NCBI GenBank assembly: GCA_016234445.1
Contig: JACRBT010000002.1
Span: forward strand, 248,001-312,000
Source of the DNA: Chloroflexota bacterium
GTDB lineage: Bacteria; Chloroflexota; Dehalococcoidia; Tepidiformales; Tepidiformaceae
Reading direction: 5' to 3'
Length of the DNA stretch: 64,000 bases
This document shows positions 2,376-45,227 of this stretch, piece after piece. The notes under the pieces were generated by a model. It had not been told where the DNA came from and searched no databases. It was given only the letters and a program-made list of their open reading frames with translations. A program made the translations under genes and the position numbers. Position 1 is the stretch's first letter, and every line of letters begins with the position of its first letter.

Positions 2376-3251
2376 CTACCGCTCGTCGATGAGTGGCTGG
2401 AGTCTCGCCCGGCGTTGCTCGCCTGCGGCCATGTGGCGCATCCGTTCCTGGGTGACCGGGTCGTTCGGGTCGCCCGCCGCCCAGCCGCGGCCGGCGTCGC
2501 GAAGGCCGCCATCCATCAGCAGGTAGGAACCGGAGAAGAACTCCCCGTCGGGGCCGGAAAGGAAGGCGATCAGCCCCGCGATGTCGGACGGCCGCCCGGC
2601 GCGTCCCACCGGCGTCCGCTCTTCGAGGGCGGTGCGGATGGGGCCGCCCTCGTCCCCGGCGAGGCCGTGGGCCAGGGGCGTGTCGATGACGCCCGGGCCG
2701 ATGGCGTTGACGGTGATCCCATGGACGCCCAGTTCCTGCGCCCAGCCCCGGACCATCATCCGGACACCGGCCTTCGTGGCGCTGTAGGACCACGAGTTCG
2801 CGCCCGTGTTCTCCGCCGCCAGCGACGACATGCAGATGATCCGGCCGCCGTTGCCGAGGCGCACCATCTCCCGGGCAGTCGACTGCACGGTCAGGAAAAC
2901 GCCGGTGAGGTTGATGTCGACCTGGTCCTGCCAGTCCTTCAGGCTCATGTCGAGGACACTGCCGGCCCGGCCGATGCCCGCGTTCGCGACCGAGATGTCG
3001 AGCCGCCCGAGTTCCTTCACGCAGCGGGCGACGCCGTCCTCCAGTTGCGGCTGGGAGGCGACGTTGACCTTCACGACGAGGGCGTCGCGGCCGAATTCGC
3101 GCACCGTGGAGGCGGTGTGTTCGGCGCCTTCCACGTCGATGTCGGCGATGCAGATGTTGGCACCCTCCCGGGCCAGCCGCTCCGCCGTTCCCCTGCCGAT
3201 GCCGGACCCTCCGCCCGTGATGAATGCCACCTTGCCGTCGAGCACACCCAT
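2376..3251 (-). CDS. Short-chain dehydrogenase/reductase
   Basis: A 291-residue classical SDR. The Rossmann glycine motif GGGSGIG (near residue 14), NAGIG, the catalytic Ser-Tyr-Lys set ('MSSLAAE', 'YSATKAG') and the C-terminal 'SGSYLLMDGG' are all present. A C-terminal extension of about 40 residues ('QERMRHMAAGEQRRARLQPL') is longer than usual. A GAGAGG site precedes the ATG. It could act with the neighbouring aldo/keto reductase, but no substrate can be named. Confidence 0.85.
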   Translation of the reverse strand: MGVLDGKVAFITGGGSGIGRGTAERLAREGANICIADIDVEGAEHTASTVREFGRDALVVKVNVASQPQLEDGVARCVKELGRLDISVANAGIGRAGSVLDMSLKDWQDQVDINLTGVFLTVQSTAREMVRLGNGGRIICMSSLAAENTGANSWSYSATKAGVRMMVRGWAQELGVHGITVNAIGPGVIDTPLAHGLAGDEGGPIRTALEERTPVGRAGRPSDIAGLIAFLSGPDGEFFSGSYLLMDGGLRDAGRGWAAGDPNDPVTQERMRHMAAGEQRRARLQPLIDER

Positions 3252-3289
3252 GGTTACAGACCTCTCGTGCGAAATGCGTGCCGCGAATC

Positions 3290-3943
3290 CTACACCGGCT
3301 GGCGGCGGCGCGTGGCGAACCCCATCGGCAGGAGCACGGCAAGCGCCCAGGAGAATCCGCCGGCGACGTCGCTGGGCCAGTGGACGCCCATCCAAACGTT
3401 CGCGATCCCATTGAGGACCACCAGCGCCACAAGCGCCGCGACCGCGGCCACCCGTGCCGGGCGCGCTCCGGCCCGCGTGCGGACAACGCCGAGCGCGGCG
3501 GCCCCCAGGAGATAGGTACCGCTCATCACGTGGCCGGCAGGGAAGGAACTGCTCGAAAACCCGGCCCGGCGGTCGACGAGCGATGGATCGGGGCGGGGAC
3601 GGTCAACCACGTCCTTGAGTGCGCCCTGCAGCACGACGATCACGACCAAGCCGAGTGCGAACAGCGTCGCCTCCCGCTTCCGGCCCGTGAGCCACAGGGC
3701 GACGGCCGCTGCCGCACCCACGCCGGCCACCGTCCCAGTCGCGGTGAGCGCCCGGACAGCGCGAGAGAGGGTGCGGCCGGGGAACGGCCAGTCCTGGACC
3801 GCCCCGGTCACCGCGAGGTCGCCGGGAAGGCGGTCGGAGGCCATCGCCGCTGCCGAAAGCACGACCGCTGCCAACACCACCACGAGCCAGGCAAGGAGAA
3901 GAGGCCGAGGACAACACAAATCGCCGGGCCGGGCGGAGGCCAC
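3290..3943 (-). CDS. PAP2-family membrane phosphatase
   Basis: About 217 residues with several membrane segments. The three PAP2 motifs are clear: 'KDVVDRPRP', 'SFPAGH' and 'GVHWPSDVAGG', which form the vanadium-haloperoxidase-like active site. Family members dephosphorylate lipid phosphates such as undecaprenyl diphosphate or phosphatidate. The start is uncertain: an ATG at 3997 would overlap the end of relA by 50 bases, whereas the GTG at 3943 begins just after the relA stop (3948). The GTG is preferred; an intermediate TTG is also possible. Confidence 0.75.
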   Translation of the reverse strand: MASARPGDLCCPRPLLLAWLVVVLAAVVLSAAAMASDRLPGDLAVTGAVQDWPFPGRTLSRAVRALTATGTVAGVGAAAAVALWLTGRKREATLFALGLVVIVVLQGALKDVVDRPRPDPSLVDRRAGFSSSSFPAGHVMSGTYLLGAAALGVVRTRAGARPARVAAVAALVALVVLNGIANVWMGVHWPSDVAGGFSWALAVLLPMGFATRRRQPV

Positions 3944-40819: not shown

Positions 40820-41668
40820 TCAGAAGAGCAGCTGCGACAGCCGCCGCTGGTACTCGCGCGTCAGCGGCGCCTCCAGCCCGAGGAGGTCGAAGATGGCCAA
40901 CACGGCCTTGCGGGCGGCGCCTTCCGCGAACGTCTTGTCGAGCGCGACCGACTCCAGGAGCTGGTCGAGTGCGGCTTCGTACTGGGCGCCGGCCGCGAGC
41001 ATGACGCCCCAGCGGTAGTGCGCGCGGGGGTCGCGAGGGTTGGCCGAGACTTCGGCGGCGAAGTTCTCGCCCGAATGCTTCGCCGCGAAGTTGTCGAGGA
41101 AGATCCGGTGCTTCAGGACCTTCGCGCGCCGGTCGGCCGGGACGCGTTCGAGGAGGTCCGCCGCCTCTTCCGTCTCGCCGCGCTCCATCAGCATGCCCGC
41201 CAGCCCGATGACGGCGTCCGGGTTCGACCGCTGCTTCGCGAGGATCTCCCGGTAGCGCGCCTCCGCGGCCGCGGTGTCACCAGCGTGGATCAGGTCCTCC
41301 GCCTCGCGGGCGGCGCGCTCCGCCTCCGACGGCACCAGCTTCTGGAAGAAGGCCCGCACCTGGGGCTCCGGGACCGCGCCCGTGAACTCGGAGACCATCC
41401 GGCCGTCACGGAACGCCTTGACCGCGGGGATGCCCTGGATCCGGTACTGGGTGGCGACGCGCGGGTTGTCGTCGGTGTTCAGCTTGGCGAGGACGACCTC
41501 GCCGGTGTGCTCCGCCGCAACCTTTTCGATGACGGGGCCGAGCACCCGGCAGGGGCCGCACCACGGCGCCCAGAAGTCGACCACGACCGGCACGGTCTTC
41601 GAGCGTTCGAGGACCTCGGTCGCGAAATCGGCGTCAGAAACTTCGAGCACGGCAAAGCCAGCAGCCAT
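40820..41668 (-). CDS. Thioredoxin-TPR protein (CnoX/YbbN-like)
   Basis: 282 residues. An N-terminal thioredoxin domain with a complete active site 'FWAPWCGPCR' (CGPC) and the cis-Pro in 'IQGIPAVKAF', followed by TPR-like helices (about 120-282; 'GDTAAAEARYREILAKQ'). Relatives protect unfolded proteins from oxidation and pass them to chaperones. Unlike E. coli CnoX it keeps both Cys, so it should reduce disulfides. It lies 81 bases after the ArsM-like gene on the same strand. Confidence 0.85.
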   Translation of the reverse strand: MAAGFAVLEVSDADFATEVLERSKTVPVVVDFWAPWCGPCRVLGPVIEKVAAEHTGEVVLAKLNTDDNPRVATQYRIQGIPAVKAFRDGRMVSEFTGAVPEPQVRAFFQKLVPSEAERAAREAEDLIHAGDTAAAEARYREILAKQRSNPDAVIGLAGMLMERGETEEAADLLERVPADRRAKVLKHRIFLDNFAAKHSGENFAAEVSANPRDPRAHYRWGVMLAAGAQYEAALDQLLESVALDKTFAEGAARKAVLAIFDLLGLEAPLTREYQRRLSQLLF

Positions 41669-41749: not shown

Positions 41750-42535
41750 TCAGGGCTTGCGGGCAAACACGGTCACGCCGCGCGTGTCGAACTCCTTCGC
41801 GTCCGATTCGTGCTTGCTGCCAGAGAACACGTCGACCTCGTTCGACATCACCACGTCGACGAAGCCGGTAAGAGCGAGGATCTGCCGCCACTCTGCATCC
41901 AGCAGAGCACCGGCAATTCAGCCGCTCCAGAGTTCGATGTCGTCCTTCGCGTCCTGGGGGACCTCCCGGTGGACCAGGATGTCGCCCACCTGGATGCGCC
42001 CCCCGGGCTTGAGGACGCGCGCCATTTCGCGGAACACGGCCTGCTTGTCGGGGCAGAGGTTGATGACCCCGTTGCTGATCACGACGTCGGCGACCCCATC
42101 GGCCACCGGGAGGGACTCGGCGTAACCCTCCAGCACCTGGACGTTGCCTAACCCCAGCGCCCGCGCCCCCGCAACGGTCCGTTCGCGCATCTCCGCGGTC
42201 ATGTCGACGCCCAGGACCCGCCCTGAGGGGCCGACCTGACGGGCCGCGATGAGCGTGTCGAACCCCGCACCGCAGCCGATGTCGACCACCGTCTCGCCGG
42301 GGGCCAGGTCCCCAAAGAGAAACGGGTTGCCAGTCCCCGCAAACGAATCAACCGTTGGCGCGGGCAGCGAGGCGACGACCGTGTCGGGGTAGCCCAGCAT
42401 CCTCGCCAACGGGGCTCCGGTGTGGAAGTGGAACCCCAGCTCCGGGTTCAGTGCCACGTCCCGGTATTTTTCCGAGATGCGCCGTCGCAGCTCCTCGCGG
42501 TCGACTGCGGCAACGCCAATTGCGATGTCAGCCAT
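41750..42535 (-). CDS. ArsM-like SAM methyltransferase with in-frame TGA (candidate selenoprotein)
   Basis: 261 residues if the TGA at 41918-41920 is decoded. The SAM motif is 'VVDIGCGAGFDTLIAA'; 'VISNGVINLCPDK' and 'RVLKPGGRIQVGDI' are typical of ArsM-like enzymes. Codon 206 is TGA in the context LWSG-stop-IAGALL, where relatives read W-x-x-C-IAGAL. The frame then stays open for 55 codons of family-like sequence, including 'VDVFSGSKHESDAKEF' and 'TRGVTVFARKP', to a real TGA at 41750. A SECIS-like hairpin follows the internal TGA. Conventional termination at 41918 would remove the C-terminal metalloid-binding region. GGGAGGA precedes the ATG. Confidence 0.75.
41884..41914 (-). promoter_or_regulatory. 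Bacterial SECIS-like hairpin
   Basis: In the mRNA, CTCTGC (41907-41902) pairs with GCAGAG (41896-41891) around loop TGGAT. Two G-U pairs, one G-G mismatch and four more pairs (GCCG/CGGC) extend the stem to 41914 and 41884. The loop begins 16 bases after the TGA and has G at its second position, matching the published loose rules for bacterial SECIS elements as I know them. Confidence 0.6.
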
Positions 42536-42668
42536 GAGTGGGATCCTCCCGCGGGGAAGTTACCACAGGCGGCCGGCGCTTCTCCATATTCTTCCCGGGG
42601 AACAGCACGGGGGCCATGGCGCCGCCGGGGGCCAGGGGCCATCACCCGCCGCGTGTCGTGAAGAAAGG

Positions 42669-43027
42669 GGTCCAGCGGGCCTGTAAGCCGGATTCTGTCC
42701 ACCCGCCGAAGCGGGATGGGCGGTCATCTCTCTCGACGGCGCATCGCTACGCCGCTCTAGCAGCCAACCCGGGAGTGATAACGGGCCGGGCGCCCTTCTC
42801 CCCTATTCGGCCTTGCTCCGGGTGGGGTTTGCACGTCCGCCCCGTTGCCGGGGACGCCGGTGCGCTCTTACCGCACCATTTCACCCTTACCCGCCTAAGC
42901 GGGCGGTATGTTTCTGTTGCACTATCCGTCGGCTTTCGCCGCCCGGGCGTTACCCGGCACCCTGCCCGGTGGAGTCCGGACTTTCCTCTATGGGCGAACC
43001 CACAGCGACCGCCCGGCCCGCTGGACC
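42669..43027 (-). ncRNA. rnpB: RNase P RNA (class A)
   Basis: On the minus strand the 5' end carries GGTCCAGCGGGCC and the 3' end GGCCCGCTGGACC, a perfect 13-pair P1 helix (43015-43027 with 42669-42681). The conserved 5' block GAGGAAAGTCCGGACTCC and 3' block ACAGAATCCGGCTTACAGG are both present. Length about 359 bases fits bacterial type A. It processes tRNA 5' ends. Exact ends may differ by a few bases. The 129 bases between it and the ArsM-like start hold no gene. Confidence 0.95.
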
Positions 43028-43811: not shown

Positions 43812-45227
43812 TCAGGGCCGGAGGAAGAGCTTCGCGTCCTCGCCGTCGATCTCCACGCGGTCCACAACCTCGCGGAGGCCGGCCTGGAGCGCCTCGAAGT
43901 CGAGCGACTCCCAGTCGCGCACCAGCTTCAGGCGCGTCTCCTCCAGGTGGCGGCGGCGCTCGGCTTCGGATTGCTGGGCGGCGAGCCGGGCCCGCGCTTC
44001 CGCCATCTCCCCTTCGAGCCCTTGCTGCTCGTTCGCGAGCTCGGACCCGAGCGAGCGCATCCGTTCGAGGGTGATGTGCCCGTGGGCGGCGTCGGCCACG
44101 AGGTCCTCCACCTGGCGGCGGGTGCGCTTCATCCGCGACTCGACGCGGTCCACCTGCCCCATGAGGTCCAGGACGTAGGAGTCGACGTTGCCCGCCCGGC
44201 GGACGCGGCTGACGGCGGTGGTGTCCTCCGCGAGCATGGTCCGCAGACGGGCTTCGAGTTCTGCCGCACGCTGGGTGTTGTAGCCGCAGCTGCTCTGGTT
44301 CGTCCGGCTTTCGCACTGGTAGTAGCGGTAGGCCGAGTTGTGCTCGGAGCCGTCCTTCGTCGTCCACTTCTGCTTCCGGCTCACGCCGATGAGCTTGTTG
44401 CCGCAACGGCCGCAGTAGAGGAGCCCGCTGAGGAGGAAGGGCACGACCTTTCGTTCCATCGCGCCGCCGCCCCGGCTCTGGAGCCGCTCCTGAACCCGGC
44501 GAAAATCCTCGGGCGAGATGAGGGCAGGGTGGCTGCCCGGCACCTTCACCCCGAATCGCGTGTACGTCCCCAGGTAGGCCCGGTTGCGGAGGAGGTCGCG
44601 GACGCTCACCATGCTCCACTTCCCACCCCGGCGGGTGGTGATGCCTTCTTCGTTCAGCTGGCCGGCGATCCGGCGGATCCCCATCGCCTCCTGGAGGTAG
44701 AGCCGGAAGATGTAGCGGACGACCACGGTCTCTTCCGGCACCAATTCGAGGCGCTGGCGGGGGCCGACGCGGTAGCCATAGGGCGGCCGGCCGAGCACCT
44801 CGCCCTTCACGGCCTTCCGGCGCATCGCGCTCTTCACGCGCTCCGAAACGGGGGTCCCCGTGCCGCGGTCGGCCCAGGTCGTCAGCAGTTCTTTCGCCGT
44901 CTCCCGGCCGGTGGAGGCGGAAACGACCTGGACACCGGTGCTTTCGATCGTGAGCAGCTTCAGGGCCGCCTTCCCGAGGTCGCTTCCAAGCGCACCCAGG
45001 CCGTCGACGGCGACGACCGTGAAGCCCCGGTCGGCACGGTGGAGGAAGGCCAGCATCTGGCGGAACCCGCTCTCCTCGCTCTCCGTCTCATCGGTGTCGA
45101 CGAAGGTGGCGGCGACTTCGAAGCCCTGCTGGCGGCAGAAGTCGAGGTATGCCCGGTTCTGGTCGCCGATGGAGCGCTTCGCTCCATTGCGCCGGGCACC
45201 CTCCACGAAGTAGCCGACCGCGCGCAT
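43812..45227 (-). CDS. Large serine-recombinase-like protein without the catalytic residues
   Basis: 471 residues. Resolvase-like N-domain (1-125), recombinase domain (about 130-250), a zinc ribbon with CGRCGNKL (272-279) and later Cys (305, 314), then a long coiled coil (about 325-450). The usual N-terminal YxRVS is YFVEG (residues 6-10), so the nucleophilic Ser is Gly, and the active-site DRLSR is DGLGA (75-79), so the arginines are lost too. It should bind DNA but not cut it. It lies between core genes, three bases after the next gene on the strand, so it is probably a domesticated protein. Confidence 0.75.
   Translation of the reverse strand: MRAVGYFVEGARRNGAKRSIGDQNRAYLDFCRQQGFEVAATFVDTDETESEESGFRQMLAFLHRADRGFTVVAVDGLGALGSDLGKAALKLLTIESTGVQVVSASTGRETAKELLTTWADRGTGTPVSERVKSAMRRKAVKGEVLGRPPYGYRVGPRQRLELVPEETVVVRYIFRLYLQEAMGIRRIAGQLNEEGITTRRGGKWSMVSVRDLLRNRAYLGTYTRFGVKVPGSHPALISPEDFRRVQERLQSRGGGAMERKVVPFLLSGLLYCGRCGNKLIGVSRKQKWTTKDGSEHNSAYRYYQCESRTNQSSCGYNTQRAAELEARLRTMLAEDTTAVSRVRRAGNVDSYVLDLMGQVDRVESRMKRTRRQVEDLVADAAHGHITLERMRSLGSELANEQQGLEGEMAEARARLAAQQSEAERRRHLEETRLKLVRDWESLDFEALQAGLREVVDRVEIDGEDAKLFLRP

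Follow-up and report, generated by a model that had tools for sequence, protein, structure and literature searches.

We present here a gene for a methyltransferase of the ArsM type that, judged by sequence comparison, is very probably a real selenoprotein gene and a member of a separate selenocysteine (Sec) branch of the family. Its product appears to carry a lone selenol where a three-thiol As(III) site once stood. The gene was found in a 64,000-nucleotide stretch of a Chloroflexota genome (GenBank assembly GCA_016234445.1, contig JACRBT010000002.1, positions 248,001 to 312,000), referred to here as the window; coordinates are window positions unless a locus is named.

The gene occupies positions 42535 to 41750 of the minus strand, which also carries every other window feature given below. 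An ATG at 42535 and, 9 nt upstream of it, a Shine-Dalgarno sequence GGAGG at 42545 to 42549 were read directly from the sequence. A TGA codon interrupts the frame at codon 206 (41918 to 41920) in the context LWSG-TGA-IAGALL and is followed by 55 open codons and the true stop, TGA at 41750 to 41752; when the internal TGA is read as U, the frame stays open and gives a protein of 261 amino acids with Sec206. Position and context match exactly those in a preliminary description, which took the codon for Sec in place of a conserved Cys. The protein contains a class I S-adenosylmethionine (SAM) methyltransferase domain (Pfam Methyltransf_31, 9e-31). An AlphaFold model built with 21 homologues as input has a mean pLDDT of 91.2, and its best PDB matches are CrArsM (Foldseek, 2.5e-18), CmArsM, and human AS3MT, so that the predicted fold is like that of CmArsM.

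The TGA codon is conserved. Among pooled distinct homologous sequences, the site is TGA in 45 and TGC or TGT (Cys) in 4, and no other stop or other residue was found at it in these sequences. A survey of 99 related genomes gave full-length close matches (53 to 100% identity; lengths in the 261-residue range) that, with one exception, have a single TGA, at this same codon. Sampling 400 genomes across the phylum showed the same pattern, and the TGA persists at identities as low as about 47% and beyond the phylum itself, the homologues including Gemmatimonadota and Acidobacteriota. Cys occupies the site in paralogues and in four Sec-branch members. The tails of the homologues are free of decay, as the preliminary description had said of the window gene; the sole exception is locus L067, which has TGA at the site and further stops (four in the aligned stretch) and is probably a decaying copy. 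A general reassignment of TGA was rejected because neighboring genes, and the methyltransferase gene itself, terminate in TGA. Two genomes (G062 and G191) contain, downstream of the first methyltransferase gene, a second and more distant one with TGA at the same place (FR-U-IGGA; L036, 2282 to 3016, and L103, near 2830 to 3531).

Directly 3′ of the UGA, folding and comparison revealed a bacterial SECIS-type hairpin (41883 to 41915; core stem 41891 to 41907, apical UGGAU). It starts 2 nt past UGA206 and folds as UGCCG-G-UGCUCUGC-UGGAU-GCAGAGUG-G-CGGCA at −23.8 kcal/mol, whereas the 39 nt after the terminal TGA fold more weakly (−14.0). Only 7 of 5,000 synonymous recodings, drawn with the codon usage of the window genes, were equally stable. 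An initial count of covariation, over 20 sequences, showed too little variation to be strong evidence, with one pair changed on both sides; the set of 45 UGA sequences settled the question. All six core pairs are present in 38 of these and five in another 4 (at least five of six in 42 of 45), and pair 15-29 is UA in 27, CG in 12, and GC in 2, which represents compensatory change. The four Cys versions have lost the hairpin and retain just two to four of the six pairs. Paired cells at the site make up 95% of the UGA set versus 57% of a set comprising canonical ArsM paralogues and a single Sec-branch protein with Cys. No SECIS family of Rfam matched at the hairpin site.

The host genome (3.54 Mb, rated 97% complete) encodes the full set of Sec genes: selA (540.8 bits), selB (317.5 bits), selD (360.7 bits), and selC (66.9 bits, above the cutoff; called tRNA-SeC with anticodon TCA by ARAGORN). 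The selD gene (L011; G000:C10:286703-287638) has one internal TGA at CGG-TGA-ASK, which we take to be the usual SelD Sec site, with a stable hairpin after it, and is therefore a second UGA-containing selenoprotein gene in this genome. Among relatives, selA occurs in 14 of 16 genomes with the UGA gene versus 41 of 83 others (one-sided Fisher test, P = 0.004, kinship ignored); of another 24 UGA genomes, 23 have it, for 37 of 40 overall. A tRNA-Sec gene was found in 15 of the 16 (the host and 14 of the 15 others), the exception being G042 (80% complete). No selA was detected in the UGA drafts G023, G077, and G408, the first two of which do have tRNA-Sec. Of G042 and these three drafts, three are rated 72 to 80% complete, but G077 is rated 94%. 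Two of the genomes with a Cys version lack selA (G087 and G274) and two have it (G327 and G339); G087, which is 96% complete, is also missing tRNA-Sec. The proposal of Sec at a conserved Cys is thus borne out by the Sec machinery, the Cys of homologues, the conserved hairpin, and the intact tails, and the selA, selB, selD, and selC genes, the downstream SECIS element, and the homologue alignment that the preliminary description had singled out for checking all agree with it. We regard Sec at UGA206 as very well supported, about as firmly as sequence alone allows.

Proteins of this kind have been cataloged before. A 2008 study counted Sec-containing arsenite methyltransferase in marine metagenomes (PMC2398784), a 2016 one reported it in 39 organisms (PMC5029168), and a 2026 source lists it with the motif UxxG (PMC13188914, citing Fomenko 2007); the published exemplar of the UxxG protein is WP_011987699.1 (family sources PMC2398784, PMC5029168, and PMC13188914). 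The window protein resembles this family in its Sec at UxxG (here U-I-A-G), at the ArsM Cys224 position, and in its ArsM fold and SAM motif. Because U-I-A-G stands at the same place as the cataloged motif, the window gene is a member of an already known kind and adds one selenoprotein to it. It differs in scoring 219.9 with the NCBIfam ArsM model NF008823, below the curated cutoff of 263. The best-matching NCBIfam model is NF041537 (ArsM/AhpD), over window protein residues 7 to 236. This model, NF041536 (ArsM/DUF2284), and NF047649 (methyltransferase/UXPK-star) each have a second domain that the window protein lacks, and it falls far below their cutoffs.

Arsenic ligands were counted from an alignment to the CmArsM structures 5eg5 and 4kw7. 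In this alignment residue 206 corresponds to Cys224, Thr68 (42332 to 42334) to Cys72, and Gly156 (42068 to 42070) to Cys174; of the three As(III)-binding thiols, the window protein therefore has none as Cys and a selenol at one (T68, G156, and U206). A tree of 75 proteins placed 44 Sec and 4 Cys rows together on one branch (96/84); 24 rows that have Cys at each of the three positions fell into a separate group (82/75). No Sec-branch row in this tree has Cys at position 68 or 156, Cys72 being replaced by T, V, or M and Cys174 by G. The preliminary description had placed the codon at a metalloid-binding thiol; this stands insofar as the site aligns with the As-binding Cys224, but not for the metalloid site as a whole, the other two ligands being absent throughout the branch. 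The four Cys rows occupy three places in the tree, which suggests that Sec changed to Cys three times within the branch. Most Sec-branch members have a (G)FHFHTG motif, absent from canonical ArsM, which in the window protein is GFHFHTG at residues 34 to 40 (42416 to 42436); some variation occurs at its His positions (H38 is conserved at about 90%). Canonical ArsM, CmArsM, CrArsM, and human AS3MT share the fold, the SAM site, and the residue 206 position (Cys224) with the window protein, which differs from them in lacking Cys72 and Cys174, in its N-terminal motif, and in its gene neighbors. The host has a separate, canonical ArsM (L084; G000:C2:622073-622618) that scores 314.3 with NF008823 and carries all three cysteines. 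With Cys restored in silico at the missing ligand positions, the window protein gained 6.1 and 6.6 bits against the ArsM model. With the change G156C, the protein scored 1.8 to 3.4 bits lower against the three selenoprotein-fusion models, and the described NF041537, NF041536, and NF047649 selenoproteins therefore probably carry Gly at the Cys174 position, a feature these models appear to share with the window protein. A homologue in genome G041 was considered as a Sec form of canonical ArsM and rejected; it has SNG, not SNC, and is located after a Sec DsrE gene.

Gene neighborhoods were compared for 50 Sec-branch loci, Cys versions included, with neighbors counted within the fetched flanks. 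These loci often adjoin rhodanese, persulfide dioxygenase-like, DsrE, or OsmC genes, and recurrent neighbors encode ArsR-rhodanese, metallo-beta-lactamase-rhodanese, DsrE, and OsmC proteins, an MFS transporter, and a protein most similar to type III sulfide:quinone reductase. At least one of the ArsR-rhodanese, rhodanese, DsrE, OsmC, or quinone reductase-like genes flanks 31 of the 50 Sec-branch loci versus 0 of 13 canonical ArsM loci, and the three core neighbor types alone account for 22 of the 50. Because the query set originates in the Sec branch itself and the loci are related to one another, the contrast is biased and the P values (5e-5 and 0.002) are indicative only; some matches may be to one domain only. 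Canonical ArsM loci have ArsR-family regulators and, once, an arsenate reductase-like gene. The ArsR-type neighbors of Sec-branch loci could likewise be arsenic responders, which would count against a sulfur reading. At five loci (L037, L068, L124, L131, and L132) the adjoining DsrE gene itself has a UGA at a V-U-GxC site. DsrE-family genes with an in-frame TGA at this motif adjoin the methyltransferase gene at 2615 to 2971 of L052, 1061 to 1417 of L037, and 7172 to 7561 of L131; for the two Sec DsrE-family proteins checked, no NCBIfam model matched. At L070, L071, and L075, a neighboring flavoprotein comes closest to the selenoprotein subtype of type III sulfide quinone reductase (NF049943) but scores below that model's cutoff.

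The window locus has none of the sulfur-type neighbors, only a thioredoxin-TPR gene (CnoX-like; Pfam Thioredoxin and TPR_20) at 40820 to 41668, 81 nt downstream of the methyltransferase stop. Putatively cotranscribed, it may supply a reductant. It was found beside no other Sec-branch locus and is unique to this one; no neighbor common to all Sec-branch loci was found. On the other side, a class A RNase P RNA gene (42668 to 43024; 286.6 bits) lies on the same strand with its end 132 nt upstream of the methyltransferase start, and near it a gene at 43812 to 45227 (minus) reads by eye like a serine-type site-specific recombinase.

For the substrate, our first choice, held with modest confidence, is a reduced sulfur or selenium species, because a lone selenol beside SAM, the loss of the other metalloid ligands, and the sulfur-type neighbors point that way. 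By the comparative evidence, SelB and tRNA-Sec very probably read UGA206 as Sec, directed by the hairpin after the codon. The Sec206 selenolate, beside bound SAM, would bind a small reduced species (sulfide, persulfide, selenide, or a thiol) and promote its methylation as a detoxification, and thioredoxin-type reductants would restore the selenol. The SAM-dependent sulfide and methanethiol S-methyltransferases MddA, MddH, and MddM (PMC12904073) resemble the window protein in this proposed type of reaction, the basis on which they were compared; none is described with Sec in that source. MddH is a SAM enzyme of the UbiE type that methylates sulfide (PMC12904073), and such enzymes make the proposed reaction plausible by analogy, an argument that does not extend to kinship.

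Ranked next, and in our view somewhat unlikely, is an arsenic or other metalloid substrate: a selenoprotein still methylating As(III), for instance, in which Sec206 would be the principal ligand and small thiols, glutathione among them, would occupy the remaining positions. The fold shared with CmArsM and AS3MT, the placement of Sec at the Cys224 position, and the catalogs that name Sec-UxxG proteins arsenite methyltransferase (PMC13188914) would fit such activity; the absence of Cys72 and Cys174 from every Sec-branch row, the score below the ArsM cutoff, the three-Cys ArsM elsewhere in the same genome, and the mostly sulfur-type character of the recognizable neighbors argue against it. It is equally possible, and again somewhat unlikely, that the selenoprotein acts on an organic thiol, a heavy metal, or another soft species. 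One chalcogen ligand is left at the site, alongside the conserved GFHFHTG motif, a possible metal binder; in NCBIfam relatives the domain is fused with an AhpD, DUF2284, or UXPK-star module, and many such proteins are assigned to the handling of metals or metalloids in a review (PMC13188914), but nothing points to a particular metal and the His positions vary. That the TGA reflects nonsense mutation or sequencing error and the gene is a truncated pseudogene, for which the decayed L067 offers a precedent, is so improbable that we rejected it on the conservation of codon, tail, and hairpin, the TGA recurring in 45 distinct sequences and in other phyla.

Returning to the sulfur or selenium substrate, a wider claim would follow the same lines, namely that the Sec branch consists not of arsenic enzymes but of Se-dependent sulfur/selenium methyltransferases associated with rhodanese, persulfide dioxygenase, and DsrE (sometimes with Sec), and that "arsenite methyltransferase selenoprotein" labels are wrong for it. 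We put this forward tentatively. In a limited literature search, we found no published description of the loss of arsenic ligands across the Sec branch or of its sulfur-type neighborhood.

Standard gene calling would wrongly truncate the window protein at residue 205, and annotation would give it the doubtful label of arsenite methyltransferase; the substrate of the Sec branch may be something other than arsenic. The clade-wide switch from three As-binding thiols to one selenol, with some reversions to Cys, provides a clean natural test of the role of selenium in a methyltransferase, and in Chloroflexota and other phyla the chemistry of sulfur gases or persulfides may include a Se-dependent step carried out by this branch.
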